Source: a virus
IMG/VR virus record: IMGVR_UViG_3300042564_002254
Coordinates: 1-58,119 of that record
DNA: 58,119 bases
Strand: one strand, 5' to 3'
The translations under genes were made by a program, and so were the position numbers. The notes beneath the pieces were generated by a model. The model had not been told where the DNA came from. It did no database searches and saw nothing but the letters and a program-made list of their open reading frames with translations. This document shows, in pieces, positions 10,443 through 57,142 of the stretch (positions are counted from its first letter, which is position 1; each line of letters begins with the position of its first letter).

Positions 10443-11129
10443 TTAGCAGTTGTCTCCGCTAGAGATAGTCCGATCACTATCAAAACTATCATAACAAATG
10501 CCATAAAGTGTATGTCTTATGCCAGAAGTTACAGGGGTAACTTTATGAGTAAATTCTTTTGTTATTGGTATATTGACAAGCATTCCAGGTTCTGGCTTAA
10601 TAATGATGTCTGGCTTATATTTAAATAGCAATTCTCCTCCAACAAAATCATTATTTAAATATAAAGACCACGCCCCTGTTAGTCCATCATCTATTTGCCC
10701 TGGGTTCCCTTTTTCATGATGCCACTCAAATGCACCATACTTATCAACCCCTTCTTTAAATGGCCAAAAAGATTGAAGGGTTGTGTTTTTTAATAAATGA
10801 TCTGGCAAAGCCATTGAGAGTCTATCTAATAGACCACCATCTTGCCAAAATATGGGGTCTTTGTGCTGTTCATCTTTATCTGTTGGGAATACTGCACTTA
10901 GACTTAGATCGATTCCTCTTGTAGGACACACGGTTCCTTGTGGATGAATATCGTGTTTTATACCAATAAATTTGTTTCTTATTGAAGGTGATCGAGAGGT
11001 TATATACCAGCCATTAGGCTCATCGCAATGTTTCCTTAATTCGGCGGACTCTTCTTCAGTTAAAAAATTAGGTATGTACCAAAGATCTTTGTCTAAGTAC
11101 ACTTTTTGGCTTTCGATAAGTTCTTTCAT
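10443..11129 (-). CDS. 2OG-Fe(II) oxygenase, prolyl-4-hydroxylase-like (no. 1)
   Basis: 228 residues with the double-stranded beta-helix signature WSLYLNNDFVGGELLF, distal iron ligand H195 and 2-oxoglutarate Arg R205 (SGIRHTLYG). The usual HxD is HxE here (H137-H-E139 in EWHHEKGN), an allowed but rarer carboxylate. TATAAT is seven bases before the ATG. It is isolated from the main array at 48.7-56.6 kb and adjoins a luciferase-like monooxygenase. Substrate unknown. Confidence 0.85.
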   Translation of the reverse strand: MKELIESQKVYLDKDLWYIPNFLTEEESAELRKHCDEPNGWYITSRSPSIRNKFIGIKHDIHPQGTVCPTRGIDLSLSAVFPTDKDEQHKDPIFWQDGGLLDRLSMALPDHLLKNTTLQSFWPFKEGVDKYGAFEWHHEKGNPGQIDDGLTGAWSLYLNNDFVGGELLFKYKPDIIIKPEPGMLVNIPITKEFTHKVTPVTSGIRHTLYGICYDSFDSDRTISSGDNC

Positions 11130-30460: not shown

Positions 30461-30690
30461 GTCTGTCTTCCCTCCATCATCTTTCTAATTCTATCCGAAA
30501 GGACAGACAAGTCAAGTTCGAACTCTTTACTATATTTTTTAATTTCGTCCAAAGTTGCAAGCATATAGTATTCTTTAGTATATTCTCTATGGTTAAGATA
30601 GTTATTCATATCTTTAAAGGGTATGTGTGGACCATCGCACATCCAGGTAGTTATGCAAAAGGGGCAACCATCAAAGTTATCGTTTATCAT
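30457..30690 (-). CDS. Hypothetical protein with Cys motif
   Basis: 77 residues: CPFC and a further C (DGCPFCITTWMCDG) at the N-terminus, then a helical part. Overlaps both neighbours. The Cys cluster may bind a metal. Confidence 0.6.
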   Translation of the reverse strand: MINDNFDGCPFCITTWMCDGPHIPFKDMNNYLNHREYTKEYYMLATLDEIKKYSKEFELDLSVLSDRIRKMMEGRQT

Positions 30691-31271
30691 AAAAATTCTA
30701 CATTACCTATGTACTGAATTGGAAGTACGTCAATTATTAGATGAACTCTGTTTTCATTGCTACTATTTTCCACTGAATGATATTTTCTATTGTTTAACTC
30801 GTACAAAGTAGATGACTCCAATTGAAAAACCTCTCGTTCAACTGTAAATGTACATTCTTTATTTGTTAAAATAGGTATGTGAAACCTTCTTGACACATAC
30901 AAAAGGTCTGATCTGTCTTTGTGTGTTCTTATTCTGCTGTTTGGCAACAGATTTATAACTTCCGACCTTATTACTTTTCCTACCACAAGTTCTTCAAGTT
31001 TTTTATATATATTTTTTATTTCATCATTGGCTTCTTTTGTTTTAAAGTTGTTCGGTGAAGTTGAATTTATTTTATCTTTTAAGTTCCACTCATAATCAAG
31101 TTCTTTTAATTGATACATAAAGGTTTTTTCGTGCGATTGGAACTTTTCTTGTCTAGATGTATCTATTAACCACTCTTCAACATATTCTGTTATTTCTTTT
31201 TTTATACTATCAACAAAAACAAAACCAAAGTTGTTTATTCTCCAAGGGTTTTCTTTGCTAAACTCTGTCAT
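30687..31271 (-). CDS. Aspartyl/asparaginyl beta-hydroxylase-like 2OG oxygenase (no. 2)
   Basis: 194 residues. H117-K-D119 in RTHKDRSD, RFHIPILTNKECTFTV, distal H165 in KYHSVENSS, and R175 in NRVHLIIDV match the AspH family (PF05118), which hydroxylates Asp or Asn residues or small molecules. The core family length is present. It overlaps the sulfotransferase upstream by four bases, so hydroxylation followed by sulfation of the same target is conceivable (inference). Confidence 0.88.
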   Translation of the reverse strand: MTEFSKENPWRINNFGFVFVDSIKKEITEYVEEWLIDTSRQEKFQSHEKTFMYQLKELDYEWNLKDKINSTSPNNFKTKEANDEIKNIYKKLEELVVGKVIRSEVINLLPNSRIRTHKDRSDLLYVSRRFHIPILTNKECTFTVEREVFQLESSTLYELNNRKYHSVENSSNENRVHLIIDVLPIQYIGNVEFL

Positions 31272-36211: not shown

Positions 36212-37624
36212 ATGGCTGCTGAATATATTGATAATACGGAAATTGGTTCTGGTATATACCCAACCAAGATACCTGGCTATGAAGATGCAGCCGACATTCA
36301 AGCGGCCTTAAGGCTTTACCACTATGGATCAACAACAATTCCTACAGAAAACACTCTCGGAACAGCAAGTGGAATTAACACAAAATCAATAGCAGGACAT
36401 TTTAAAGCCATAGATAACACCATTCAAACACTTGCAACAACCGCCTATGTTACAAACGCAATTGCTGGAGTTACAGACGAGTATGCTCAACTTGCTGGAA
36501 CAGGAATTGATTGGAATGCAGGGGCAAACAGGTTCGACCTTGACTATTTGTCAACAGTTATTGAAAAAACATCTAATTTTACTTTAGAAGCATCTAATGT
36601 TGGAAATACAATTCTTTTATCTACTTCTTCAACAATTGCCCTTACAGTCCCAGCAAATTCTGCCATTGCTTTGCCAATTGGTTATAAGGTTGATTTAATT
36701 GAAGTCGGTTCAGGAAGAACGACATTTACTCCAGGATCTGGCGTAACAATAAATAGCAAAAATGCACAAATGTATATTGACTCACAATATGGCAAAGCAA
36801 CACTTTTAAAGATTGCAGAAAATTCTTGGATTGCGTATGGAGATATATATGAAGGTGCTTCTACACCAACACCAACTCCCACTCCAGTAGCACCTACTCC
36901 AGTAGCACCTACTCCTGTAGCGCCTGTCCCTGTAGCACCTACGCCAGTAGCACCTACGCCAGTAGCGCCTACGCCTGTAGCGCCTGTCCCTGTAGCACCT
37001 ACACCTGTAGCACCTACACCTGTAGCACCTACACCTGTAGCACCTACACCTGTAGCACCTACACCTGTAGCACCTGCTCCTGTAGCACCTGCTTTTGCAA
37101 TAACAAGTACTTCCTCAACAACAAGTTCTGTAACATACTCTTGGGCTAACGCCCCAGCAGGAACTGTAAATTATAGTATTTTCTATGTTTATGATGATGA
37201 TACTCAATCTTCTGTAACTACTACATCATCATCATCTGCTACATTTAGTGGTCTTTCTTCAAGCACAACTTATGGAGTTTATGTTTCAGCAAGAAACTCA
37301 GATGGCACAACCTTGGCAAGCGCTTCTGCATCTATTACAACTCTTTCACCAACACCTACACCTGTAGCGCCTACTCCTGTAGCACCTACTCCTGTAGCGC
37401 CTGTCCCTGTAGCACCTACTCCAGTAGCACCTACTCCAGTAGCACCTACTCCAGTAGCACCTACTCCAGTAGCACCTACTCCAGTAGCGCCTGTCCCTGT
37501 AGCACCTACTCCAGTAGCACCTACACCTGTAGCACCTACTCCTACAGCAAATTGTGGACCATACCCATCAGGATATGCTCCAGGAGAGTGCATATGTGTA
37601 GGATCAATGTGGACTTGTTTTTAG
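36212..37624 (+). CDS. Fibre protein with TPVAP repeats and an FN3-type domain
   Basis: 470 residues. An N-terminal fibre domain (~215 residues, with a segment VDLIEVGSGRTTFTPGSGV shared with the 46.5 kb fibre) leads into 14 TPVAP/VPVAP pentads, then a fibronectin-III-like domain (FAITSTSSTTSSVTYSWANA ... ARNSDGTTLASASASIT), then 12 more pentads and a Cys-containing tip (CGPYPSGYAPGECICVGSMW). The pentads have AP, TP and VP dipeptides, the kind of sites hydroxylated and O-glycosylated in plant arabinogalactan proteins. A GGTGAT ribosome-binding site precedes the ATG. Confidence 0.8.
   Translation: MAAEYIDNTEIGSGIYPTKIPGYEDAADIQAALRLYHYGSTTIPTENTLGTASGINTKSIAGHFKAIDNTIQTLATTAYVTNAIAGVTDEYAQLAGTGIDWNAGANRFDLDYLSTVIEKTSNFTLEASNVGNTILLSTSSTIALTVPANSAIALPIGYKVDLIEVGSGRTTFTPGSGVTINSKNAQMYIDSQYGKATLLKIAENSWIAYGDIYEGASTPTPTPTPVAPTPVAPTPVAPVPVAPTPVAPTPVAPTPVAPVPVAPTPVAPTPVAPTPVAPTPVAPTPVAPAPVAPAFAITSTSSTTSSVTYSWANAPAGTVNYSIFYVYDDDTQSSVTTTSSSSATFSGLSSSTTYGVYVSARNSDGTTLASASASITTLSPTPTPVAPTPVAPTPVAPVPVAPTPVAPTPVAPTPVAPTPVAPTPVAPVPVAPTPVAPTPVAPTPTANCGPYPSGYAPGECICVGSMWTCF
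36863..37090 (+). repeat. 15-bp tandem repeat, block 1 (TPVAP pentads)
   Basis: About 14 in-frame copies of a 15-bp unit such as CCTACTCCAGTAGCA, with synonymous drift (ACT/ACA/ACG) and GTC for the VPVAP variant. The drift suggests expansion followed by point mutation, and slippage could change fibre length. Confidence 0.9.
37349..37551 (+). repeat. 15-bp tandem repeat, block 2 (TPVAP pentads)
   Basis: About 12 copies of the same unit, flanking the FN3-like domain on its other side. The second block is more homogeneous than the first, so it may be younger. Confidence 0.9.
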
Positions 37625-38110: not shown

Positions 38111-38710
38111 ATGAACAAAGAAGAAATAGCACCAGGAATAGTTGTTTATAGTAATGTAATACCAAATTCAGAAAACTTATATAAAGAAATTGAAGAAGGC
38201 ATCAATTCTGCAAAAATAGAATGGCAGGGTGCATCTGTAAAAGAAGCAGATAATGTTAGGATTAACAACGAAACAAGAAACACCTTAACAATAGGGATAC
38301 CATATTTAGCGAAAATAGACAAAGAATTATCAACAAACTTTGTTGAAGAGTTTAACAAAAATTTAAATAATTTATTTTTTGAACATTTTGATTTAATTGA
38401 AAAAGACTATTTATCTTTTTATGGAATAAACTCAAATTGGCACGATCAATATGGAATTTTAAAATATGGTAAAGGACAGTTTTTTACTAATCATATAGAT
38501 GATCACCCAGACTATCATAGAAGAGTTTCTACTTTATATTACATGAACGATGACTATGTTGGTGGAGAAATAAACTTTCCTAGATTTAATTTAAGCATAA
38601 AGCCAATGTCAAATCAAATGATTATATTTCCTTCAACATATGTTTATAATCACTCAGTATCTCCAGTAATTGAAGGAGAAAGATACGCAGTAGTTAGTTG
38701 GATGCGATGA
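38111..38710 (+). CDS. 2OG-Fe(II) oxygenase, prolyl-4-hydroxylase-like (no. 3)
   Basis: 199 residues. Iron ligands H128-I-D130 and H181; 2OG-binding R191. The core signature YYMNDDYVGGEINFP is shared with the array at 48.7-56.6 kb. It starts 3 bases after the zinc protein and overlaps the next oxygenase, so hydroxylation genes sit directly between the fibre genes and the sugar genes. Confidence 0.93.
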   Translation: MNKEEIAPGIVVYSNVIPNSENLYKEIEEGINSAKIEWQGASVKEADNVRINNETRNTLTIGIPYLAKIDKELSTNFVEEFNKNLNNLFFEHFDLIEKDYLSFYGINSNWHDQYGILKYGKGQFFTNHIDDHPDYHRRVSTLYYMNDDYVGGEINFPRFNLSIKPMSNQMIIFPSTYVYNHSVSPVIEGERYAVVSWMR

Positions 38711-39279
38711 AAGAGCCACAATTAATAAATAGTTTATTAAATGCTGAAGATTATACAAGACTGCTTGAGTCTTTAGACAATCCTAAAAGTTTTGGTTTTG
38801 ATCCTGGATTTAGTAGGTACTGCATTGGAGACTTTGATCTTCCAATTCTTGGTGAATTAGCAGATAAACTAGTAGACACTGCAAGACAAGTATTTGATAG
38901 TGAATCTTTAATGCCAACATATACCCTATTTGCACATTATGAAGGACAAAACCCTACCCCAAGTCTTTACAAACATAAAGATGACAATGCATGCACATAT
39001 ACTCTTGATATGTGTGTTTATCAGAATAATCCGTGGGATTTGTGGGTAGAAGACAAAAACTATTGTCTTTATCCTAACCAGGCATTGGCATACTACGGCA
39101 ATGATCAATTACATTGGCGTGAAGAATTTCCTAACCCAGAGACGAATCATGTTGCTATGATTTTCTTTCATTTTGCAGAGCCAGATCATTGGTGGTTTAC
39201 CAAGGGCGCAGAATATCTTCAGGTAGTCAGAGGGCAAATTACAGAAGAGCAGTGGGGGCTCAATTATGGCAACAAATAA
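38707..39279 (+). CDS. Divergent 2OG-oxygenase-like protein (no. 4)
   Basis: 190 residues from the ATG at 38707, overlapping the previous stop (ATGA). PSLYKHKDDNACTYTLDMCV gives H90-K-D92; distal His candidates are H136 (QLHWREEF), H148 and H155 in NHVAMIFFHFAEPDHWWF. It lacks the NDDYxGGE core, so it belongs to another 2OG subfamily also found in phages. Substrate unknown. Confidence 0.7.
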   Translation: MKEPQLINSLLNAEDYTRLLESLDNPKSFGFDPGFSRYCIGDFDLPILGELADKLVDTARQVFDSESLMPTYTLFAHYEGQNPTPSLYKHKDDNACTYTLDMCVYQNNPWDLWVEDKNYCLYPNQALAYYGNDQLHWREEFPNPETNHVAMIFFHFAEPDHWWFTKGAEYLQVVRGQITEEQWGLNYGNK

Positions 39280-40303
39280 GATATTTTTCCAACACTGGAA
39301 TCCTTGCGGATTAATAAATCAGGTAATGAGTCTAGAGTTAGCAGTGGGTCTCTCACATGAAACAAATGCAACTGTTGTAGTTCATAATGCAAGCAACAAG
39401 GGTGATCATTTATTTGATTTTAGGGCTGTTCCAATTCACACTCCTTCTAGATTTCATAACAATCAAAGAGAAGGATTTACAAATCCAGATCAGTTTCCAC
39501 ACCTATTAGAATTATTAGACTTTGATTCAAACTTAATTGTAATTGATCAAAAAATAGACAACTTTAAGCAGGAAGAAGTGGTTATAGAGGACATATTAAA
39601 TAACTACTACTACAGCAATAGCACAAAAATAACAGAAAATGAGTTAGCATTTGCTGAGGGCAGACAAAGATTGCCACTAGATAGACCAATACATCTAAAA
39701 GGAACATTGGGCTGGTACTCAAGATTTTTCTATAACAGAAGCCCTGAACTAGATAAGGTATTGTCCTCAGTTAGGTTTAAGAAAGAATACACAGACCTGG
39801 CTAAGAAGATATCTAACTCTTTAGGCACATTTCAAGGTATGCATTTAAGACTAACTGACCATGTGCACATGTTTGAAACCACTCAAGAAATGTTTGAGTC
39901 TTGGATCAGTAACTTTGAGCAAAACAACTTGCCAATAGTTTTGTCAACAGATGAACCAGGTCATAAAATGGTTGAAGACAATAAGCATAGATTTATGCTA
40001 TTAGATGAATACATTGTTAACAACTTTGCAGAAGACTTTAAGTCCTTACAATTTCAGGATGAAGTAGTTTTTGGTTTAATCTGTAATTTAGTTATGCATG
40101 ATTCAGAAACTTTTGTTGGCACATCAGGAAGCACCTATACTGCATACATCCATAGAAATAGAAATCAAACTCGTAATGAAACTTGGGATTTCTTTGATAA
40201 TCCAGAAACAACAGAAGGCCATCCATACTCTTGGAATGGTCATCCACTAAACCCTGGCAGAAAAATGTGGTGGAGAGAATGGAAGGAGTCAAGATTATCA
40301 TGA
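39266..40303 (+). CDS. GDP-fucose O-fucosyltransferase-like glycosyltransferase
   Basis: 345 residues. GLINQVMSLELAVGLSHETN near the N-terminus, GMHLRLTDHVHM (~residue 190, the donor-binding HxR), VLSTDEPGHK and FVGTSGSTYTAYIHRNRN near the end are the three conserved regions of protein O-fucosyltransferases (PF10250). Overlaps the preceding oxygenase and the GDP-mannose 3,5-epimerase that follows. The donor is probably a GDP-hexose; the acceptor could be a hydroxylated fibre residue (inference). Confidence 0.78.
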   Translation: MATNKIFFQHWNPCGLINQVMSLELAVGLSHETNATVVVHNASNKGDHLFDFRAVPIHTPSRFHNNQREGFTNPDQFPHLLELLDFDSNLIVIDQKIDNFKQEEVVIEDILNNYYYSNSTKITENELAFAEGRQRLPLDRPIHLKGTLGWYSRFFYNRSPELDKVLSSVRFKKEYTDLAKKISNSLGTFQGMHLRLTDHVHMFETTQEMFESWISNFEQNNLPIVLSTDEPGHKMVEDNKHRFMLLDEYIVNNFAEDFKSLQFQDEVVFGLICNLVMHDSETFVGTSGSTYTAYIHRNRNQTRNETWDFFDNPETTEGHPYSWNGHPLNPGRKMWWREWKESRLS

Positions 40304-41322
40304 AGACAGCATTAGTCTTAGGAGCAGGTGGTTTTATTGGAAGCCATATGGTAAAGCGTTTAAAGTCTGAAGGATACTGGGTTCGTGGAGTAGACCTAAA
40401 ACATCCAGACTTTTCTGAAACACAAGCAGATGAATTTATTGAAAGAGATCTGTCAGTATACGACAACATGGAAAAGGTTGTTCAGTTTAAGGGTTATGCT
40501 GGTAATTTTTATTCAGAGATACCATATAAATTAATTACATCATTTGACGAAATATATCAGTTTGCTGCAGACATGGGTGGTGCTGGATATATTTTTACTG
40601 GAGATAACGATTCCCAGATTATGGAAAACTCAGCATTAATTAATTTAAACTTACTTAGAGCACAATCAAGACTAAACAAAAAATACGAGATTAACAAGAC
40701 CAAGATATTCTACTCAAGTTCAGCATGTATGTATCCCGATTACAAACAACTAGAAACCAATAATCCTGGACTCAAAGAATCAGATGCGTACCCTGCAGAT
40801 CCCGATAGCGAATATGGTTGGGAAAAACTGTTTAGCGAAAGACTATTTCTAGCATTTAACAAGAACAACAAGATACCAGTTGCAATAGCAAGATATCATA
40901 ACATCTTTGGGCCAGAAGGAACATGGGATGGTGGTAAAGAAAAAGCACCTGCAGCAATGTGTAGAAAAGTTATTCAGGCAACAGATTCTATAGAAATTTG
41001 GGGCGACGGTGAACAAACTCGTTCATTCTTGTTTATTGATGAATGCATAGATGCAACCAAAAAACTTATGGAATCAGACTTTACGGGACCAATCAATATT
41101 GGCTCTGAAGAAATGGTAACAATAAACCAGTTAGTAGACACAGCCTGCTCTATTGAAGGAAAGTCTTTAAAGAAAAATCATATTTCAGGACCATTGGGTG
41201 TTCGTGGAAGAAACTCAAACAATGATTTAATCAGAGAAAAACTACAGTGGGACTATTCTCTGCCATTGCAAAACGGTATAGAAAAAACCTACAATTGGAT
41301 TAAAAGTCAAATAAATGGATAA
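40300..41322 (+). CDS. gme: GDP-mannose 3,5-epimerase-like SDR
   Basis: 340 residues. NAD-binding GAGGFIG at residues 8-14, FAADMGGAGYIFTGDND, SSSACMYPDYKQL, active-site Tyr/Lys in SEYGWEKL, NIFGPEGTWDGGKEKAPAAM, IEIWGDGEQTRSFLFIDEC and GPLGVRGRNSNN all match GDP-mannose 3',5'-epimerase, which makes GDP-L-galactose or GDP-L-gulose. In plants this feeds cell-wall L-galactose. Here it lies between two GDP-sugar-type transferases, which likely use its product. Confidence 0.93.
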   Translation: MKTALVLGAGGFIGSHMVKRLKSEGYWVRGVDLKHPDFSETQADEFIERDLSVYDNMEKVVQFKGYAGNFYSEIPYKLITSFDEIYQFAADMGGAGYIFTGDNDSQIMENSALINLNLLRAQSRLNKKYEINKTKIFYSSSACMYPDYKQLETNNPGLKESDAYPADPDSEYGWEKLFSERLFLAFNKNNKIPVAIARYHNIFGPEGTWDGGKEKAPAAMCRKVIQATDSIEIWGDGEQTRSFLFIDECIDATKKLMESDFTGPINIGSEEMVTINQLVDTACSIEGKSLKKNHISGPLGVRGRNSNNDLIREKLQWDYSLPLQNGIEKTYNWIKSQING

Positions 41323-42154
41323 GGCTGAAGTTGTAAGAGAAGTTTTTTTGCAAGATGGCATTGGAGCACAACTATGGAGAAAACTATTCTGCATGTCTTA
41401 TGCAAAATACCACAACCTTCTTTTTGAAGACAGTCCAATTACAGATTTTTTAATTCATGAATCTGACAAAGTTTACAGCGAAGAAGAAAAGGTTAAATTC
41501 ATAGATAAGTTTAATACAATATTAAGTAACCCTTGGAAAGATATAGACTTTTCTAACAAAGACAGTTTTGTTCTTTGTGATAAAGTTGGCTTAGGATACG
41601 AAATATTGTACAAAAATGCAGGAGTAATAGATCAGCCATGGACATTCTTAGATGTTGCCAAAGAATTTAGCACTATAGAAAAAACAGAAAACAATGTAGT
41701 GATTCATATAAGAAGAGGCAATGTTCTTCCAGAAAATCCAAGATGGGTAGAAGAATCTGTTTATGTAGACATGTTGCAACGACTTCCAGACTTTTTAAAA
41801 AAACTAAATATTGTTCCAGACAGAGTAATAATTTTAACAGATGCTCCAGATTCAAACAAAAAGTTTAAGCCTATAAATCAAAATCAATTAGATAAATGGA
41901 GACAACCTCATTTACACAAAGACGAAAACGATTCTTTTGACACAATGTCTATAAACTTTAAATTACTTAGGGATGCATATCCAGGTATTGAAATTTTAAA
42001 TAATCTAGATACCTATACAGCATTTACTATGATGGTAATGGCAAAAGTTTTAATAACTGGTAGATCTGCCTTCAGCGAATCTGCGGGTCTACTATCAAAA
42101 AACACTGTTTTGTCAGTTAATAACTATCGCAGTTTTTTTGAAAGTATGCAATAA
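41315..42154 (+). CDS. Fucosyltransferase-like enzyme (GT11/NodZ type)
   Basis: 279 residues. VFLQDGIGAQLWRKLFCMSY is the Gx-GNQ-type N-terminal loop; VVIHIRRGNV is the HxRRG donor-binding motif of alpha-1,2/alpha-1,6 fucosyltransferases (usual D replaced by N), and ITGRSAFSESAGLLS the C-terminal conserved block. Completes a three-gene sugar cassette. A terminator follows. Confidence 0.78.
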   Translation: MDKAEVVREVFLQDGIGAQLWRKLFCMSYAKYHNLLFEDSPITDFLIHESDKVYSEEEKVKFIDKFNTILSNPWKDIDFSNKDSFVLCDKVGLGYEILYKNAGVIDQPWTFLDVAKEFSTIEKTENNVVIHIRRGNVLPENPRWVEESVYVDMLQRLPDFLKKLNIVPDRVIILTDAPDSNKKFKPINQNQLDKWRQPHLHKDENDSFDTMSINFKLLRDAYPGIEILNNLDTYTAFTMMVMAKVLITGRSAFSESAGLLSKNTVLSVNNYRSFFESMQ

Positions 42155-47815: not shown

Positions 47816-48625
47816 ATGGCAGCAGGTAAAAAAGCAGGTAAGAAGTCTCAAGCGTCTAACGACTTTCTAGAGCCATTAGCACCAACAAGCGTATCTGCTA
47901 CAAACGTAGGTACTGGTAGAGCATTTAATAATGGCTCAGCAACAGTTACCTTTTCTTTACCAGCACTTTCTCCTGCAGCCACATCCTTTACAGTAACTTC
48001 AAGCCCAGGGGGATTCACAGCCACTGGTGCCAGTTCACCACTTACAGTAACTGGTCTTCAGTCAAATACAGCATATACATTTACAGCAACAGCAACAAAT
48101 GCTGCAGGAACATCTGCTGCATCATCTGCCTCAGCATCAATTACTGCAACAACAGTTCCAGCAACACCTTCAGCACCAACCGTAACCACACAGGTTAACC
48201 AGGACAATGTTTCTTGGTCTGCCCCAGCAAACGGTGGTTCTGCAATTACTGGCTACACCTGGGCATCTTCTGATGCAAAGGGTGCAACAGTGGGTTCAGG
48301 AACTATAAGCGTTGCAGTTACTCAAGAAGGAGGAACTGCTCAGACATATACAGTTTATGCAACAAATGCTAATGGAAATTCTTTAACTTCAGCAGCCTCT
48401 AACTCTGTTACCACTACTCCTCCGTTCTTCCCACCGTTCTTCCCACCATTCTTCCCGTTCTTCCCACCATTCTTCCCACCATTCTTCCCGTTCTTCCCGT
48501 TCTTCCCACCGTTCTTCCCACCATTCTTCCCGTTCTTCCCACCATTCTTCCCACCATTCTTCCCACCATTCTTCCCACCATACTTCGCCCCACCTACATT
48601 CTCTGGCGCGATGGCATTCTTCTAA
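47816..48625 (+). CDS. FN3 protein with Phe-Pro repeat tail
   Basis: 269 residues. A basic start, two fibronectin-III-like domains (about 22-110 and 115-200), then about 55 residues of almost pure PPFF/PFFP repeats ending in PPYFAPPTFSGAMAFF. The FN3 domains probably sit on the virion; the aromatic proline repeat may be an extended, sticky rod. It is the last fibre gene before the oxygenase array. Confidence 0.82.
   Translation: MAAGKKAGKKSQASNDFLEPLAPTSVSATNVGTGRAFNNGSATVTFSLPALSPAATSFTVTSSPGGFTATGASSPLTVTGLQSNTAYTFTATATNAAGTSAASSASASITATTVPATPSAPTVTTQVNQDNVSWSAPANGGSAITGYTWASSDAKGATVGSGTISVAVTQEGGTAQTYTVYATNANGNSLTSAASNSVTTTPPFFPPFFPPFFPFFPPFFPPFFPFFPFFPPFFPPFFPFFPPFFPPFFPPFFPPYFAPPTFSGAMAFF
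48418..48588 (+). repeat. PPFF-encoding tandem repeat
   Basis: About 14 units of the 12-bp CCACCATTCTTC / 9-bp CCGTTCTTC type, with CCA and CCG alternating. Strong pyrimidine bias on the plus strand, so it could also form unusual DNA structure. Confidence 0.85.
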
Positions 48626-48727: not shown

Positions 48728-49441
48728 ATGTCGGTATATGATGAAAATTCAAATCCTTGGTTTACTAAGGATAGATCAGAAACTGCTATAAATAGATTTC
48801 CAACTAGGACAATAGAGGATAGTATTGTAGTTGAAAACCCAGCACTAGGGATAAATCTATATAGAAATGTTTTTTCAAAAGAAGATTCAGAAAGATATAT
48901 AAACACTCTTGAATCAAATCTTGATGGCACTAAAAAATATAAATGGTCAGAGGCTACAGTTACAAATTCTCCTAATCCAATTAAAAAAGCAAGAGACTGT
49001 GTAGATTTTAAATATAAACAAGAAAATCTTGGACCAAGAGATCAAGACAACTCTGAACTAATCGATTTACACGAAGAAATATATCAAAAACTTAAATACT
49101 GTGTAGACGATTACGCAAAATATTGGGGAATAAATGTTGTTTATTATGAAGCCTTTAATTTTGTAAAATATGAAGGAGAAGGAAAACATTTTAATATACA
49201 CGCAGACCACGGACCAGCCTATAACTGTACAGTTTCTGCTGTAATTTATATTAATGATGACTATGAAGGCGGAGAAATAAAATTTCCAAGACTTGATGGA
49301 TATGTTCACACTCCTAAAGTTGGGGATATTCTTCTTTGCCCATCTAATTATATTTATGAGCATGCTTCTTTGCCAATGAAATCAGGGGCAAAATATTGTG
49401 TTGTTGTAATGACTGATATAAATGAGTTAGGACACAAGTAG
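48728..49441 (+). CDS. 2OG-Fe(II) oxygenase, array member 1 (no. 5)
   Basis: 237 residues. Iron ligands H158-A-D160 and H212, 2OG-binding K222, core YINDDYEGGEIKFP. The EAFNFVKYE and YNCTVS segments are shared with the 50.2 kb paralogue, its closest relative here. A GGATAAAG ribosome-binding site precedes the ATG, and a -10-like TATACT (about 48688) may start the array transcript. Confidence 0.93.
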   Translation: MSVYDENSNPWFTKDRSETAINRFPTRTIEDSIVVENPALGINLYRNVFSKEDSERYINTLESNLDGTKKYKWSEATVTNSPNPIKKARDCVDFKYKQENLGPRDQDNSELIDLHEEIYQKLKYCVDDYAKYWGINVVYYEAFNFVKYEGEGKHFNIHADHGPAYNCTVSAVIYINDDYEGGEIKFPRLDGYVHTPKVGDILLCPSNYIYEHASLPMKSGAKYCVVVMTDINELGHK

Positions 49442-50217
49442 TGACTACAAAAAGTAATAAAATTATATTTAAACCACTTAGGCCATGGCTAAATAAAAAT
49501 AGCGTTAATGTTCCTGTTCCAACACAAAAAGAAACTCCAGGTTGGTATAAGGATGCAGACAGGTTTGCAAAGATGCCAAACGGAGAATACTACAAAGCAC
49601 CAAAAGAAGTTTGTCCATTTCCTAAAGAAGGAACCGTAGACGACTATGGAAGAATCCCTACATGGAAAGCCTGTCCAGCAATAATGGATGCATTTATAAC
49701 TGGCTACGTTTTTAAAACTCCTTGCGATTTAACATTTACTAAAAATAGTTCAGGGTATTTAGATGTTAAGGTTGAGAACCCAATGTATACAGAATTTTGT
49801 ATGCCAAGACCACCAATGCCACAGTTTGAACACCCTAAAGGATACTATAAACACCACTTTGCTTGGATGGCAGACTGGGGAATGAAACTACCAGAAGGCT
49901 ATAGCGCTTTGTTTATGACACCAATGAATAGATTTGACCTCCCATTTATAAATACAACTGGTGTTGTTGATTCTGATAAAGTTCATCTTCTTGGCAGTTT
50001 CCCATTTTTTATTGCAGATGGTTGGGAGGGAACACTCCCAGAAGGAACTCCATACCTACAAGTTCTTCCATTTAAAAGAGAAAATTGGGAGCACAAAATA
50101 GAAGATCTTGATCAGTCTACTGCCTACAACGAATTAATAGAAAATAGAAAGTTTTATAGACAGCCTGACGGCGGTGTATATAAAAATAAAGTATGGTCAA
50201 GAAGAGAATATAAATAG
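49441..50217 (+). CDS. DUF6065-like protein
   Basis: 258 residues with a GTG start overlapping the previous stop. WKACPAIMDAFITGYVFKTP, YSALFMTPMNRFDLPFINTT, GVVDSDK and LQVLPFKRENWEHKI resemble DUF6065-type and related phage proteins also found next to 2OG oxygenases. Beta-rich; function unknown, but its place inside the array suggests a partner or substrate role. Confidence 0.6.
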   Translation: MTTKSNKIIFKPLRPWLNKNSVNVPVPTQKETPGWYKDADRFAKMPNGEYYKAPKEVCPFPKEGTVDDYGRIPTWKACPAIMDAFITGYVFKTPCDLTFTKNSSGYLDVKVENPMYTEFCMPRPPMPQFEHPKGYYKHHFAWMADWGMKLPEGYSALFMTPMNRFDLPFINTTGVVDSDKVHLLGSFPFFIADGWEGTLPEGTPYLQVLPFKRENWEHKIEDLDQSTAYNELIENRKFYRQPDGGVYKNKVWSRREYK

Positions 50218-50225
50218 GAGATAAA

Positions 50226-50909
50226 ATGCAAACATGGACAGAAAAAGTAAATCTAGGCAATGGAATAGTTTGCTATAGAGGAGTAATTAAAAAAGAGTTT
50301 GATGTTATTAATAGACTTGAAAACGCCCTTGGATCAGTTGCTTTATATGGAGAGTTATCCCCAGAGGGTAATAGATACCACTGGATGCCAGCGTATGTTG
50401 GATATCAAAAACTTATGCCAGAATATAGGGACTGCGTAGACTTTAAATTTAAAAAAACAGACATAGAGCAAGACCCTAGCGAAGAATCTCTAAAGTTGCA
50501 GGCTATTTGGCAAGATGTATATGATGCTCAGTTTGCAGCAGTGGAAGACTACAGAAGAGATCATAGCATTATGCCGTTAAAGTATTGGGAAGCATTTAAC
50601 TTTATAAAGTATGGTCCAGGACAACACTTTAAAGAGCATCACGATCACGGCTTTTCATATAATTGTACAGTTTCTCTTGTCGCATATGTCAATGATGATT
50701 ACGAAGGTGGGGAATTGTACTTTAGGCTACAAGACCTAAATATAAAAGCACAGGCTGGAGACTTGTATATTTTTCCATCAAACTTTATGTATCCTCATCA
50801 GGCTATGCCAGTTACTTCGGGAACTAAATATTCAATTGTTACAATGTTAGATTACAGCAAAAAGTTTCATACCCCAGATATGTATGATCCAAAATGGGAT
50901 AATGAATAG
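50226..50909 (+). CDS. 2OG-Fe(II) oxygenase, array member 2 (no. 6)
   Basis: 227 residues. H138-H-D140, distal H191, K201; core YVNDDYEGGELYF. Close paralogue of the 48.7 kb enzyme (shared YRDCVDFKFK and EAFNFIKYG). AGGAG upstream; stop overlaps the GTG start of the next gene. Confidence 0.93.
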   Translation: MQTWTEKVNLGNGIVCYRGVIKKEFDVINRLENALGSVALYGELSPEGNRYHWMPAYVGYQKLMPEYRDCVDFKFKKTDIEQDPSEESLKLQAIWQDVYDAQFAAVEDYRRDHSIMPLKYWEAFNFIKYGPGQHFKEHHDHGFSYNCTVSLVAYVNDDYEGGELYFRLQDLNIKAQAGDLYIFPSNFMYPHQAMPVTSGTKYSIVTMLDYSKKFHTPDMYDPKWDNE

Positions 50910-51637
50910 TGTTTAAAATATCGGCTGAAAAATCTCATGGTGCTTTATTTAATATTGCTCCGATGTCTATAAAAAGAGAGTGGATGGATGCAACTTCCGA
51001 AGGTCACGCTTATAGATGTTTTCCAGTAACACAGTCAAATGTGGTTGGATGGAGTCTTTCCTGTATTGAAGATATAGAGTTTATTTGGGATGGTGTAAAT
51101 GATCAAACTGCAGAACATATTGAAATTATTAAAGCACCAGAAGGATCCTATGGAGGAAGAGGTCAATCATCTATAAGTTTTAATACTGGATTAATATTTA
51201 GAACTGAACAAAATGTTAGTATATTTACTATTAATCCAGTTAATTATTTTAGCAATGATTTTGAAACAATGTCAAACATCGTCAGTACATCTTTTTATGA
51301 CAATCCTCTTCCATTAGCAATCAAAGCAAAATCACCTAACAAAAACATTATTATTAAAGCGGGAACTCCGCTTGCAACAATAGTTCCTATTTCTCTTTCA
51401 GATTTAAACAATACATCAATAGAAGTTGTTGATTATAAAGATGAAGATAGAAAAAGAGTAGATGCGAATATATCTTATGGAGATGCAGCACAAGTGATAA
51501 ATTCTGCTGGAAAGTGGACAGACTGGTATAGAGATGCTGTAAACGAAAAAGGAGAAACTCTGGGTGAGCACGAAGTTAGGGTTTTAAAGTTATCGGTAGA
51601 AGATAATACAAAAAATAAACAGAATGGTATAATATAA
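50909..51637 (+). CDS. DUF6065 family protein
   Basis: 242 residues from a GTG. RCFPVTQSNVVGWSLSCIED, SSISFNTGLIFRTEQNVSIF, VSTSFYDNPLPLAIKAKSPN and IKAGTPLATIVPISL match DUF6065. The family often travels with 2OG oxygenases and capsular or glycan genes, but its function is unknown. Paired with the related gene at 49.4 kb, each follows one oxygenase of the same subtype, which suggests a duplicated two-gene unit. Confidence 0.75.
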   Translation: MFKISAEKSHGALFNIAPMSIKREWMDATSEGHAYRCFPVTQSNVVGWSLSCIEDIEFIWDGVNDQTAEHIEIIKAPEGSYGGRGQSSISFNTGLIFRTEQNVSIFTINPVNYFSNDFETMSNIVSTSFYDNPLPLAIKAKSPNKNIIIKAGTPLATIVPISLSDLNNTSIEVVDYKDEDRKRVDANISYGDAAQVINSAGKWTDWYRDAVNEKGETLGEHEVRVLKLSVEDNTKNKQNGII

Positions 51638-51639
51638 TT

Positions 51640-52311
51640 ATGAATAATGCAGACAACGTTGTAATAAGAAAGCCATCAATGACACCTTCTGGATGGTTTG
51701 GTAATGGTAAAGAAAATATTGTCGAGTTAGAAAATTTTATGACTCAAGAAGAATTAGAATTGCTTGACAAAGCAGCAAGAACTTTGACTGTGTGGGATCA
51801 AACACAAAGCCACGTAAATGAAAATGGAACAGTTGTCTATGATGCTGGATTTTGGAAAGACAGAGTGGCTAGTGCTCCATCTTTAAACCAAAACGATCCA
51901 AGAATAGTTCCAGTAATTTCTGGTCTAGTCGAAAGATTAAAACCAATTGTAGAAGAGTTTTTTCAAGTCAAAGCACAACCTACAGGACAAACAATTGTTA
52001 AGTGGCTTCCAGGTCAACTACAGAGGCCTCACGCAGACAAAGAACTTCATGAAGGTCCAGATGCTGGAAAGCCAAATGATTTCCCTCAGTATGATATCGC
52101 AAGTTTGTTTTATATTAATGATGACTATGAAGGAGGAGAGTTGTACTTTCCTTTACAAAAAGTTCAGTTTAAACCAAAGCGTGGAGCAGCATACTTTTTC
52201 CCAGGGGATAAGGAATATATTCACGGAGTAACAGAGATAACTAGTGGGCTCAGGTATACCTGCCCATTCTTTTGGGAAATATTAAAGCACACAGGAGATA
52301 GACAGCCATGA
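51640..52311 (+). CDS. 2OG-Fe(II) oxygenase, array member 3 (no. 7)
   Basis: 223 residues. H131-A-D133, H195, R205; core YINDDYEGGELYFP. The longer loop after HAD (KELHEGPDAGKPNDFPQY) is distinctive. TATAAT six bases before the ATG gives an internal leaderless start within the array. Confidence 0.93.
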   Translation: MNNADNVVIRKPSMTPSGWFGNGKENIVELENFMTQEELELLDKAARTLTVWDQTQSHVNENGTVVYDAGFWKDRVASAPSLNQNDPRIVPVISGLVERLKPIVEEFFQVKAQPTGQTIVKWLPGQLQRPHADKELHEGPDAGKPNDFPQYDIASLFYINDDYEGGELYFPLQKVQFKPKRGAAYFFPGDKEYIHGVTEITSGLRYTCPFFWEILKHTGDRQP

Positions 52312-53174
52312 TAAATTCTGATCTAAATCCAGTTGAGGTTTACCCTAAGATATTTGTTTATAAAAATGTTTTTAAAGATATTAATGCTACATATTCTCAA
52401 CTAAAGGAATCTAACGGAGAAGATGATGGATTGTTTAGTCCTTGGACAAAATGGTCTCATTTTGGAGAATATCTAAATCCTACATTTACAGATCATCCAC
52501 ACAGATTAAGCGTTGACTACCTTGAGAAAATAGAAACAAAAACAGAAAAAGAAGAACTACAAAGACTCGCAATCCTTGAACTTTTTAAGAATTTTCATTT
52601 AGTTACTGAAGACTATGCTTCACGTAATAGTGTAGACCTTGACAAAACAAAAACGGTATTGTCAAATGATGGCAAAACTAAAGAAGAGTGGCAAATGACT
52701 GGACCATCTATAGCAAGATATAGAACAGACATTGATGACCCAATTGCAATGACATATCATTCAGACTATATTAGAGAGCCTATCATTAGTCCAGGATACA
52801 AGTTTGCTATAACAGCCCTTGCTTATTTTAATGATGATTATGAGGGTGGAGAGATTGATTTTATTGTAAATGGAGAGGCATATAAGTATAAGCCAGAGGC
52901 TGGAGACTTTCTTGTTTTCCCTTCTGGGCACCCTGAAATACTAAAAAATGGAGACAGTGTATATCTTCATGGAGTAATGCCAGCAACAGGAGCAAGTAAA
53001 TACCTTTCTAGGATGTATTGGATGAAGTATTCTGTAGGAGATCCTGAGTGGTTTGAAAAAGAAAAAGAGTTTGGTAAAGATGTTTGGGCAGAAATGCAAC
53101 CAGACATTATGCAAAAATTTAGAGATGAAAATCCTAACAAAAGTAATGCTGACAAAGAAAGAAGGATAAAATGA
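52308..53174 (+). CDS. 2OG-Fe(II) oxygenase, array member 4 (no. 8)
   Basis: 288 residues, the largest of the array. H151-S-D153, H221, K231; core YFNDDYEGGEIDF. An extra N-terminal part (HFGEYLNPTFTDHPHRLS) and a basic C-terminus. ATGA overlaps on both sides. Confidence 0.92.
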   Translation: MINSDLNPVEVYPKIFVYKNVFKDINATYSQLKESNGEDDGLFSPWTKWSHFGEYLNPTFTDHPHRLSVDYLEKIETKTEKEELQRLAILELFKNFHLVTEDYASRNSVDLDKTKTVLSNDGKTKEEWQMTGPSIARYRTDIDDPIAMTYHSDYIREPIISPGYKFAITALAYFNDDYEGGEIDFIVNGEAYKYKPEAGDFLVFPSGHPEILKNGDSVYLHGVMPATGASKYLSRMYWMKYSVGDPEWFEKEKEFGKDVWAEMQPDIMQKFRDENPNKSNADKERRIK

Positions 53175-53926
53175 ATCTAAATAATAAAAAAAGAATAACA
53201 AAAGATATAGTTGTTTATGAAAACTTTATTAGTGATGAAGAGTGTAAAAAAATGATTCAAGCACTTGATGCTCAAGCAGAAAGTGAAAAGTTGTCCTGGA
53301 TGCCTATATCATTTTATGAGTCATACTCTTCTGTCCTTCCACAAGATAACGATCAAGAGGTGCTTGATGCTGGATTATCTCCAACTATTTTTTCAGACAT
53401 TGAAAAAGCAATGCCAGAAGCAATTGCTTCAGTTCACGACCTTGATCCAAAAACAATTTGTAAAATTGGATATCACACACAAAAGTGGGAGCCTGGAGCA
53501 TATGCAAGAATACACTCAGACAACACAGATGCTGAAGGAAAGTCTGGAGCATTTACAAGAAGCAGATATGCTGGATTCCTTTACTTAAATGATGACTTTG
53601 AGGGCGGACTATTAAAGTTCCCAGGACAAGAAATAGAGATTCAGCCAAAGGTTGGAATGCTTGCCGTATTTGACGGGGGATTTAGCAATATGCACGAAGT
53701 AACTTTGATTGAAAGTGGAGTAAGATACACCATCGGATCTTTCTGGGATGATCGTGAAGAGGATGCTTACCCACAAGAATTAAGAGATGCTTGGGCTGCA
53801 GAAATGAAAGCAACAAGAGCCCAGCAAGAGATTGAAAGAGCAGAGTGGCAAGACTTGTTAAAAGAAGGATACAAGTTAGATAAAGACGGAAATAAATACA
53901 AGATAGAAGATGTTGATAATGATTGA
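53171..53926 (+). CDS. 2OG-Fe(II) oxygenase, array member 5 (no. 9)
   Basis: 251 residues. H115-S-D117, H175, R185; core YLNDDFEGGLLKFP. A ~50-residue charged helical tail (EMKATRAQQEIERAEWQDLL) follows the catalytic domain and could mediate dimers or substrate contact. Confidence 0.92.
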   Translation: MNLNNKKRITKDIVVYENFISDEECKKMIQALDAQAESEKLSWMPISFYESYSSVLPQDNDQEVLDAGLSPTIFSDIEKAMPEAIASVHDLDPKTICKIGYHTQKWEPGAYARIHSDNTDAEGKSGAFTRSRYAGFLYLNDDFEGGLLKFPGQEIEIQPKVGMLAVFDGGFSNMHEVTLIESGVRYTIGSFWDDREEDAYPQELRDAWAAEMKATRAQQEIERAEWQDLLKEGYKLDKDGNKYKIEDVDND

Positions 53927-54578
53927 TTCTTTTAAAAAACAATTAAAAGAAAGCGGATACTCTTTTGAAGAAATTACCTCAGAACTAATATCGGTTGAAA
54001 ACTTTTTGTCAAAAGATCAGTTAAATACTCTAAACAGTATTATAGATAGTACATCGCAAGAAGATTGGGAAGTAGAATACCACGCTAACTTAAAAACATT
54101 TTGTATGAAAAAATTTGGAAGAGATGATGTAGAAAACCTTGTTGCTGAAGGTAAGTTTGAAATTACACAAAACTGGAAAGATAAAAATTTTAATATATCT
54201 AATCATGAAATATACCATCCAATGTATGAGGTTTTAAATTCAATGGTAATTGACTCAGACTCAACATTACATTTAAGTGGACTTGCAACAATTCAAAGAA
54301 TGCAGCCAGGCGTAGAGTTAAAATCACACACAGATCAAAACACAGACCCCTCTATTAAATATGCTACAATTGTATATATAAATGATGACTATTTAGAGGG
54401 TGAACTATTTTTCCCAAATTTGGATATAAAGTTAAAGCCCAAGCCAGGAACAATGTTGTTTTTTCCAGGGAATAAAGAGTATGAGCATGGAGTAAACTAT
54501 GTAGCAGAAGGACCAACAAGATATGTTCTTGTAGGTTTTATAAAAGACAAAGATCATTATGAAAACAATAGGTACTAG
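53919..54578 (+). CDS. 2OG-Fe(II) oxygenase, array member 6 (no. 10)
   Basis: 219 residues from MIDSFKKQLKESGYSFEEIT at 53919, overlapping the preceding stop. H137-T-D139, H190, R201; core YINDDYLEGELFFP (GG replaced by EG). Confidence 0.92.
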   Translation: MIDSFKKQLKESGYSFEEITSELISVENFLSKDQLNTLNSIIDSTSQEDWEVEYHANLKTFCMKKFGRDDVENLVAEGKFEITQNWKDKNFNISNHEIYHPMYEVLNSMVIDSDSTLHLSGLATIQRMQPGVELKSHTDQNTDPSIKYATIVYINDDYLEGELFFPNLDIKLKPKPGTMLFFPGNKEYEHGVNYVAEGPTRYVLVGFIKDKDHYENNRY

Positions 54579-54588
54579 GAGGAGTTAA

Positions 54589-55323
54589 ATGAATAAAGAA
54601 ATATTAGACCCAAAGGTTTATTACTATACAGATGCAATAGATAATTTTGATAAGTTTCAGTCAACACTAAAGGAGTTAGACTACCTTGATTCAAACAATG
54701 AAACTGGGGTAAATGTTTGGAACCCTTGGACATCATCTAATGATAAAAGTTTTATTTATGGCGAAACAAAGACATTTGATATTAATGCAATAAACAAGTT
54801 TGAAGGAGAAGTAGGAGAAAAAAGCAAGTATATTTATGATTCAATAATGAATACTTTGTATAATGTTTGCAAAGACTATGCTACATCTATTGGAGATTTT
54901 GATGAACCAAGAATTTTCCCAACCTTTAATATAAAAAAATATAACACTGGAACAGGTATGGGTGCACACTTTGATCAATTAGACGGAGACAAAACTTTGA
55001 GATACTCTCTCGTAATGTATCTAAATGATGACTGCGAAGGGGGAGAAATCTCTTTTCAATTAAAGGATTATGATGGTGGATGGACAAGTTCTGATGGATT
55101 CTCTAAAGGATCTGCACCAGCAGTAGACTTAGACTATGATATATCTGTAGCAAATAAAGCAATTGATTTTGGACTAAAACCAAAAGCAAATAGCGTTATC
55201 ATATTCCCAGCATTTCCTCCATACTTTCATACAGCACATATTGTGAAGTCTGGTTTTAAATATATGGTTCCTGCACACTGGATTCATAATGGAATGGATC
55301 TTAACAAATCTCAGGGGATGTAA
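54589..55323 (+). CDS. 2OG-Fe(II) oxygenase, array member 7 (no. 11)
   Basis: 244 residues. H127-F-D129, distal H214 or H217, K224; core YLNDDCEGGEISF. A ~35-residue insert (KDYDGGWTSSDGFSKGSAPA) widens the loop after the core. AGGAGG ribosome-binding site. Confidence 0.9.
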   Translation: MNKEILDPKVYYYTDAIDNFDKFQSTLKELDYLDSNNETGVNVWNPWTSSNDKSFIYGETKTFDINAINKFEGEVGEKSKYIYDSIMNTLYNVCKDYATSIGDFDEPRIFPTFNIKKYNTGTGMGAHFDQLDGDKTLRYSLVMYLNDDCEGGEISFQLKDYDGGWTSSDGFSKGSAPAVDLDYDISVANKAIDFGLKPKANSVIIFPAFPPYFHTAHIVKSGFKYMVPAHWIHNGMDLNKSQGM

Positions 55324-55986
55324 GTGAAAACAGCAATAGTTACAGGTGCCAGTAAAGGCGTTGGCTATGCCACTGTAAAACTTTTATCTGAAAACGGATA
55401 CAAGGTTATTGCTGTTTCTAGAGATTTGTCTAAAGTTATTAATTTAGTTTCTGATAATGTTGAAGTTTATAGACTGGACATAACTAGCGCTGATGAGATT
55501 AAAAGGTTTCACGAAAAGTATAGTGACATAACTCTTGACTTGCTTGTTAATAATGCAGGAGGAGGATCAGGTCCTACTCATATAATTAATGAAACAATGG
55601 ATAACTTTAGAATAGCGTATGATATAAATGTATCTGGTCCAATGTATCTTTCACAACTATTTGTTCCTTCTATGAAAAAGTCAGAATCTCCTACAATTAT
55701 TTTTATTAGTTCTTTGGGTGGAAAGTTTCCATATAGATCAGGAGGAAACTATACTAACGCTAAAAGAGGTATGATGGCTCTTGTAGATACTATGAGATTA
55801 GAGTTTCCAGAATATGGAATTAAGATTACTGAAATTTGTCCAGGTACAATAGATACACAAGAAGAAAAAAAGAATGCTGCATTAACAGCAGAAGATATGG
55901 CAGAGTGCATTAGGTGGGTATCTGAGTTACCAAAGCATGTAAATATAAATCACATAGAGGTAAACCACATACTTAGTGGTAAATAA
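55324..55986 (+). CDS. Short-chain dehydrogenase/reductase
   Basis: 220 residues from a GTG directly after the previous stop. NAD(P) loop TGASKGVG, NNAG, catalytic Ser in FISSLGG and Y-T-N-A-K: a complete classical SDR. It could oxidise or reduce a sugar or a hydroxylated side chain; no specific substrate can be read off. Confidence 0.9.
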   Translation: MKTAIVTGASKGVGYATVKLLSENGYKVIAVSRDLSKVINLVSDNVEVYRLDITSADEIKRFHEKYSDITLDLLVNNAGGGSGPTHIINETMDNFRIAYDINVSGPMYLSQLFVPSMKKSESPTIIFISSLGGKFPYRSGGNYTNAKRGMMALVDTMRLEFPEYGIKITEICPGTIDTQEEKKNAALTAEDMAECIRWVSELPKHVNINHIEVNHILSGK

Positions 55987-55997
55987 TTTGGAGAAAT

Positions 55998-56564
55998 ATG
56001 AAAATAAATAAACTTTATGATGATGTATATGAAGTAGAAGAATTTTTAACAGAGCAAGAACTTGCCGATGTTTATACTATAATCAACAATACTCCAGAAG
56101 AAGATTGGTTTGATGAAGCAGCAAGGGATGAAAATAAAACTCCAGATTTTTGGTATGGAAAAAACCTATACTTTAAATCAACAAATGTTTTTGATTTAAT
56201 AAACGATAAGATGAGAAATCTTTTTGAGTCCTATTCTTACTATCCTGAAAAGACACATTTGCAAAGATATAAAAAAGGTGACTTTATTAAACACCACGCA
56301 GACCAGTGGATTCCAGATTTGCCATACTACATAGGATATGGATTTTGTTTGTATTATAATGATGACTATTTAGGCGGGGAGTTAGATTATCCAGATCTAA
56401 AAATTACAATTAAACCAAAAGCAAATGCATTATATATACACGGGGGGCACATAGTCCACGGCTCTCTGCCAGTCCTAGATGATACAATAAGATACTTCTC
56501 TACTGTTTTTATACGTGGAACAGAGGATTCTCCAACAAGACTAAAGAAAGAGTTATTTAAATGA
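55998..56564 (+). CDS. 2OG-Fe(II) oxygenase, array member 8 (no. 12)
   Basis: 188 residues, the shortest P4H-like copy. H100-A-D102, H154, R165; core YYNDDYLGGELDYP. GGAG upstream; overlaps the FkbM-like gene. Confidence 0.93.
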   Translation: MKINKLYDDVYEVEEFLTEQELADVYTIINNTPEEDWFDEAARDENKTPDFWYGKNLYFKSTNVFDLINDKMRNLFESYSYYPEKTHLQRYKKGDFIKHHADQWIPDLPYYIGYGFCLYYNDDYLGGELDYPDLKITIKPKANALYIHGGHIVHGSLPVLDDTIRYFSTVFIRGTEDSPTRLKKELFK

Positions 56565-57142
56565 TACATAACATAACACAGCAAGAACAGTTTGTAATTG
56601 ATATTTTAGATAAAAAGAAAAATGGATATTATGTAGAGTTGGGTGCAGCACACTATAGCAATGGTAATAACACTTTTTCGTTAGAGCAAGACTATGACTG
56701 GACTGGGGTTTCATTTGAAATAGTTGAGTCTATGAGAGATGAATTTAATTCTAATAGAAAAAACCCTTGTATGGGTGATGCTCTTGCCTTTAACTATGTA
56801 GACTACTTTGAAAAAAACAACTTTCCAAAACAAATTGACTATCTACAATTAGACATAGATGCTGGTTATGATAATTACGGTAGGCCAGTTGGAAATAGTC
56901 ATTGGACACTTCAAGGATTAATAGCAGTTCCACTAAACACGTATAGATTTACTTTAATTACTTTTGAGCACGATGCAAATATGTATTGGAGAAATGATTC
57001 AATTAGAGATGCACAAAGAGAAATCTTGGATTCTTTTGGATACTCTTTAGTTCACAGATCTTTTCACGAAGATTGGTGGGTTGACTCAAATGTTATTGGT
57101 CACGGAGACTACAGAAAATACCTACACTGGCAAACATTGTAA
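56561..57142 (+). CDS. FkbM-like methyltransferase
   Basis: 193 residues. GYYVELGAAHYSNGNNTFSL, DYDWTGVSFEIVESMRDEFN, NPCMGDAL and IDYLQLDIDAGYDN match the SAM-dependent FkbM-type core. ATGA overlap with the last oxygenase. FkbM enzymes O-methylate sugars or polyketides, so it may finish glycan decoration. Confidence 0.75.
   Translation: MIHNITQQEQFVIDILDKKKNGYYVELGAAHYSNGNNTFSLEQDYDWTGVSFEIVESMRDEFNSNRKNPCMGDALAFNYVDYFEKNNFPKQIDYLQLDIDAGYDNYGRPVGNSHWTLQGLIAVPLNTYRFTLITFEHDANMYWRNDSIRDAQREILDSFGYSLVHRSFHEDWWVDSNVIGHGDYRKYLHWQTL

Follow-up and report, generated by a model that had tools for sequence, protein, structure and literature searches.

Large sets of genes for Fe(II)/2-oxoglutarate (2OG) oxygenases are known in phages: T4-like cyanophages typically carry one to five (PMC3037559), cyanophage S-SCSM1 carries 24 (PMC9602691), and cyanophage 2OG genes have previously been interpreted as metabolic genes (PMC3037559). 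For the prolyl 4-hydroxylase (P4H) of chlorella virus PBCV-1 (vCPH), 4-hydroxyproline in viral proteins was proposed (Eriksson 1999, as cited in PMC9301287), and the viral use of P4Hs has been called cryptic (PMC9301287). In the literature that we searched, phage P4Hs were nowhere connected with proline-rich fibres. Here we analyze a 58 kb viral record from IMG/VR (IMGVR_UViG_3300042564_002254, positions 1 to 58,119, hereafter the window), in which a cluster of eight 2OG oxygenase genes at 48728-56564 stands directly downstream of a gene for a proline-repeat protein. The best-supported reading of this arrangement, to which we give a probability of roughly 0.64, is that phage prolyl hydroxylases modify proline-rich virion rods.

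Eleven genes span 48728-56564, and Pfam and PHROG profiles identify eight of them (A1 to A8) as 2OG-Fe(II) oxygenases, confirming the count made in an earlier reading of the DNA from its letters alone (the sequence-only reading). All eight match PF13640, seven above its curated cut-off and A8 slightly below it (23.4 versus 27 bits), and A8 additionally fits phrog_61 'oxygenase' and the array profile. The description of these genes as a tandem array holds in that the eight lie together, but the array is not strictly contiguous, being interrupted by three non-2OG genes, two of them phrog_7084-like and one encoding a short-chain dehydrogenase/reductase:

48728..49441, + strand: A1, 2OG oxygenase, first gene of the array (PF13640 E 8e-9; H158, D160, H212 and K222 invariant in 75 sequences; dN/dS 0.06)
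49441..50217, + strand: interleaved non-2OG gene, phrog_7084 (E 4e-33)
50226..50909, + strand: A2, 2OG oxygenase (PF13640 E 1.5e-14; model described below; dN/dS 0.04)
50909..51637, + strand: interleaved non-2OG gene, DUF6065/phrog_7084 (PF19541 E 9e-27; phrog_7084 E 2e-9)
51640..52311, + strand: A3, 2OG oxygenase (PF13640 E 1e-7; iron ligands invariant)
52308..53174, + strand: A4, 2OG oxygenase (PF13640 E 2e-7; iron ligands invariant)
53171..53926, + strand: A5, 2OG oxygenase (PF13640 E 5e-8; iron ligands invariant)
53910..54578, + strand: A6, 2OG oxygenase (PF13640 E 4e-11; iron ligands invariant)
54589..55323, + strand: A7, 2OG oxygenase (PF13640 E 4e-8; iron ligands invariant)
55324..55986, + strand: interleaved short-chain dehydrogenase/reductase (PF00106 E 1e-39)
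55998..56564, + strand: A8, 2OG oxygenase, last gene of the array (PF13640 23.4 bits; phrog_61; iron ligands invariant in 11 sequences)

Every one of the eight enzymes carries an HxD motif, a distal His and a Lys or Arg shortly ahead of a conserved Tyr, in line with the HxD, distal His and basic residue claimed by the sequence-only reading, and across about 470 orthologues the iron triad and the basic 2OG residue are invariant save for one gap at one site, so that a check by alignment revealed no loss of iron ligands. The same reading had called the array a widely diverged, old and maintained expansion, which our results bear out. Pairwise identities among the array enzymes are mostly 20-40%, and in a quick maximum-likelihood tree each member clusters with orthologues from distant contigs and not with its array neighbours, A1 and A2 together forming one well-supported clade. 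Since members group with their distant orthologues, the duplications predate those phages and the expansion is therefore old. Purifying selection is evident from median dN/dS values against the window copy of 0.04 (A2) to 0.22 (A4), and the array is kept in the same order in most of the 134 related viral loci that we collected, the gene order A1-A7 being conserved in most loci and array composition differing between contigs.

Only two open reading frames in the window are proline-rich, and each stands ahead of 2OG genes:

47816..48625, + strand: fn3-type protein (fn3 E 2e-8) with a C-terminal (PPFF/PFF)n tract from about 48419, proposed substrate
36212..37624, + strand: fn3 tail-type protein (fn3 and tail PHROG matches) with two (VAPTP/VAPVP)n tracts, second proposed substrate

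The first of these genes follows tail-fibre genes, stops 103 bases ahead of A1 and has a product whose C-terminal part contains 28 Pro and 32 Phe residues and which, judged from its sequence, is probably a virion fibre or rod; the second sits 0.5 kb ahead of the 2OG gene that begins at 38111. The PPFF tract is, as far as its letters tell, a feature of the protein level: Pro codons (CCA, CCG, CCT) are mixed in the window and across 104 tracts, a count that serves as a consistency check only, the tracts having been chosen by amino-acid pattern. The neighbours of the enzymes thus carry PPFF and VAPTP repeats, not the Gly-X-Y repeats of a collagen-type substrate, and the collagen-like tail PHROG matched 34492-35223 only, which is not beside the enzymes. 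When the fn3 portion of the PPFF protein was searched against phage isolates by tblastn, no match appeared. In relatives, fn3 domains recur in the PPFF proteins, some of which also have a weak Hint-like domain at the C-terminus, and a weak Hint/intein-like end with an HN-K terminus occurs in the PPFF fibres of three related contigs (L213 3043-5559, L172 6071-7390 and L239 3566-6478). Other contigs (L036, L037, L076, L077 and others) have a cysteine-rich tip, such as YCWQACPSCC, directly after the tract. The cellular genomes of the whole collection yielded only 17 PPFF matches. Several are short tracts that look like chance and have no 2OG gene beside them; three contigs of metagenome-assembled genomes (L257, L261 and L269), which are probably of phage origin, carry genuine PPFF genes next to 2OG genes.

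The adjacency of PPFF and 2OG genes recurs well beyond the window. Where related loci extend far enough upstream, most have a PPFF gene ahead of A1, directly or one short gene apart. To avoid circularity, we also drew viral contigs on no criterion other than the PPFF DNA motif. Of 60 PPFF genes followed by 4 kb of sequence or more, 49 have a 2OG gene on the same strand within 4 kb downstream, against a background rate of 15.7% for ordinary genes of ten whole contigs (nominal binomial p 2e-29; p 1e-4 by permutation within these contigs). The association is directional, the 2OG gene lying downstream in 28/44 and upstream in 1/44 PPFF genes with both flanks of at least 1.5 kb, and every PPFF contig tested has a 2OG gene elsewhere if not nearby. 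PF13640 is present in 34/34 PPFF contigs, about two thirds of which were picked without reference to 2OG genes, versus 3/27 contigs with (PT)n repeats and no PPFF (nominal p 5e-14). Among other proline-rich genes of whole contigs, those with neutral repeats (TPPV, VTP, PTP, PSPP) have a 2OG gene behind them in six of seven cases, and those for acidic Pro/Glu-rich proteins in one of seven. The repeat pattern furthermore covaries with enzyme class: mixed P/PP repeats accompany first enzymes of A1 type and pure PP repeats those of A3 type, single-P units making up 17-62% of the repeat with an A1-like first enzyme and 0-5% with an A3-like one (nominal p 8e-9). The suggestion of the sequence-only reading that the targets are virion fibre proteins gains support from this systematic association with proline-rich, fibre-like genes, which makes such targets likely.

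Fibre regions are recombination hot spots, and the varying composition of the array could suggest that 2OG genes pile up downstream of tail fibres as horizontal cargo, without functional coupling. We regard this as very improbable, given the A1-A7 order kept in most loci, the low dN/dS, the acidic proline-rich genes without a link and the near absence of 2OG genes from viral contigs selected by (PT)n. No more credible is the proposal that the enzymes consume 2-oxoglutarate to modulate host metabolism or repair nucleic acids, as published for cyanophage 2OG genes (PMC3037559): consumption of 2-oxoglutarate would not need eight lineages under strong purifying selection beside proline-repeat genes, and the matches obtained for these enzymes are to protein hydroxylases and not to the AlkB nucleic-acid family, with the exception of one weak match to AlkB homologue 8 (E 1e-4) from a profile of ten window enzymes.

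That same profile placed the B. anthracis P4H first, with prolyl 3-hydroxylase 1 also at the top. An AlphaFold model of A2, the one enzyme for which we describe a fold, is confident (pLDDT 87.8) and has the double-stranded beta-helix of prolyl hydroxylases; its top PDB matches in Foldseek are the P. putida P4H (4iw3, with EF-Tu), the chlorella-virus collagen prolyl hydroxylase (5c5t) and an algal P4H with a (Ser-Pro)5 peptide, followed by PHD-type enzymes and, lower, by lysyl hydroxylases (LH3 and the mimivirus lysyl hydroxylase), at moderate query-normalised TM-scores of 0.5-0.6. The P4H-like fold and active site anticipated from the sequence are borne out by this model, the profile matches and the invariant residues, and fold and neighbourhood together suggest that the array enzymes may be P4Hs by activity.

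The lysyl hydroxylases among the fold matches, the Asp/Asn-hydroxylase-like paralogue B30 elsewhere in the window and the presence of eight enzymes with several fibre genes would also accommodate activity within tail-fibre domains on Lys, Asn, Asp, Phe, Tyr or Arg instead of Pro, the proline repeat being a structural companion. We think this unlikely, as the closest structural and profile matches are mainly prolyl enzymes and the link persists across differing fibre architectures that have the proline repeat in common. The closest solved relatives also include bacterial P4Hs acting on EF-Tu, and the phage enzymes might similarly hydroxylate host proteins such as EF-Tu or ribosomal proteins and reprogram translation, their location beside the fibres being a site for late-expressed cargo. 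This, too, is improbable, and somewhat more so: the link is specific to proline repeats, as the contrasts between PPFF and (PT)n contigs and between neutral and acidic repeats show, and it is directional and covaries with the repeat pattern, none of which a host target would require.

We therefore favor, at the odds given above, a model in which the array encodes active Fe(II)/2-oxoglutarate prolyl, or closely related peptidyl, hydroxylases that would modify the phage's own proline-rich virion proteins post-translationally. The main substrate would be the (PPFF)n rod in the product of the fn3 gene directly upstream, and the set at 38.1 kb may act on the (VAPTP)n fibre. Hydroxylation could stiffen or solubilise the extended rod or ready it for glycosylation, and the diverged paralogues may differ in the Pro positions or sequence contexts that they recognise, both within the repeat and in adjacent fibre proteins. 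The sequence-only reading proposed a target site or protein of its own for each enzyme; the data agree equally well with several enzymes sharing one repeat and acting at different places in it. More tentatively, and with doubt outweighing confidence, tailed phages may possess a dedicated fibre maturation in which specialised prolyl hydroxylases each read their own repeat position or context, hydroxyproline-rich rods are perhaps then glycosylated by neighbouring glycosyltransferases, and repeat and enzymes co-evolve.

Several points weigh against the rod-hydroxylation model. Hydroxylation itself is predicted, and eight enzymes for one or two visible proline-rich proteins are more than the model needs. 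Ten or so of the 34 PPFF contigs came via 2OG or phrog_7084 queries, leaving only the rest unbiased; contigs share ancestry, so that the p-values are nominal and overstate independence; and the sixteen cases of a pure-PP repeat trace to two enzyme clades of about 30% mutual identity and do not count as independent. No 2OG gene lies near 11 of the 60 PPFF genes, or near 5 of 17 in whole contigs. Finally, generic (PT)n phage proteins are linked to 2OG genes in 5/54 cases only. As (PT)n proteins are mostly unlinked, proline richness alone is not the signal, and we rejected general proline richness in that role.

Four further genes had been counted with the array to give twelve 2OG-type enzymes in the window, a fair count if 'type' is taken loosely, but B10 has HxE, B30 belongs to another family and B38b is a weak case:

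10443..11129, - strand: B10, 2OG-like, HxE replacing HxD (PF13640 26.4 bits; HHE versus HQD in an orthologue)
30687..31271, - strand: B30, Asp/Asn beta-hydroxylase-like 2OG enzyme of a different family (PF05118 E 1.6e-11)
38111..38710, + strand: B38a, 2OG oxygenase just downstream of the VAPTP-repeat gene (clean PF13640, E 3e-17)
38698..39279, + strand: B38b, divergent 2OG-like protein (no Pfam match; homology to an S-SCSM1 2OG protein)

For B38b, the homology (E 1e-11) is with an annotated 2OG protein of cyanophage S-SCSM1 and lies in the N-terminal half of that protein; the C-terminal half of the cyanophage protein matches A2 and B38a. Behind the 38 kb pair, at 39266-42154, lie genes for an O-fucosyltransferase-like protein, a nucleotide-sugar epimerase and a third protein that is fucosyltransferase-like by eye; a role in fibre glycosylation is possible from their sequences. 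Within the array, 2OG genes also match phrog_3531, phrog_2297 and phrog_274, named ferrochelatase or DNA endonuclease, names that look misassigned or derived from fused proteins and that recur in phage annotations. The predicted structure of the interleaved phrog_7084 protein at 49441-50217 is of unusable quality and gave weak, dUTPase-like fold matches; phrog_7084 relatives occur in haloarchaeal tailed viruses, and the haloarchaeal virus relative has no annotated 2OG neighbour. Directly behind A8, 56561-57142 encodes a 193 aa protein without significant Pfam match, and a gene for a PstS-like phosphate-binding protein lies at 5049-6083. Promoter and terminator scans returned fewer sites than in shuffles.

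The cyanophage setting implied by the sequence-only reading, which was also our starting assumption, was not borne out and was dropped. The window encodes a WhiB-like regulator at 2761-2934, and whiB, an actinobacterial marker that has served to assign freshwater actinophages (PMC6802176), also occurs in 13 of 34 related contigs; among phage isolates, Streptomyces and Mycobacterium phages match the window's DUF932 and GP88 proteins best (51-56% identity); and none of the 34 related contigs has psbA. Because of these three findings, the host is probably an actinobacterium, as far as gene content indicates, and a freshwater origin would fit the literature on such actinophages. The array does not have the character of a cyanophage-carried auxiliary metabolic gene, and a megablast search of it against phage isolates gave zero matches.

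Aquatic-phage 2OG oxygenases are usually filed as metabolic genes, and a specific adjacent substrate makes the question of their function concrete and testable. If the model holds, fibre-rod hydroxylation would be general in a large actinophage group, and perhaps in cyanophages, with bearing on fibre structure, adsorption and the annotation of aquatic viromes. Cyanophage 2OG oxygenases belong to the same superfamily and likewise number many per genome, with low identity to one another and in part grouped close to tail-fibre genes, but in another phage group and host type, and their best identities to A2 are below 60% at partial coverage. In S-SCSM1, a single case, 2OG genes flank a short tail fibre (L251 7084-8349) with a long Pro-/Arg-rich insert of RQPR/APFNFR repeats. 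vCPH shares with our enzymes a virus-encoded P4H fold and is the second-best structural match of A2, yet it comes from a virus of a eukaryotic alga, whereas the window, from a tailed phage, has eight diverged copies, and the repeats next to them are PPFF and not collagen-like. The bacterial P4Hs on EF-Tu (P. putida 4iw3; B. anthracis 5v7y) are alike in fold and active site and differ in serving a host housekeeping target; we know of no repeat-protein neighbour for them. In plants, hydroxyproline-rich glycoproteins form proline-repeat rods that are modified by several P4H isoforms, a combination that the window resembles, although here the setting is a phage, the repeat is PPFF, and glycosylation is only a candidate, from the O-fucosyltransferase-like and sugar epimerase genes at 39-42 kb. 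The arrangement as a whole suggests a likeness to the collagen hydroxylation of animals, here directed, by analogy, at the phage's own fibres.

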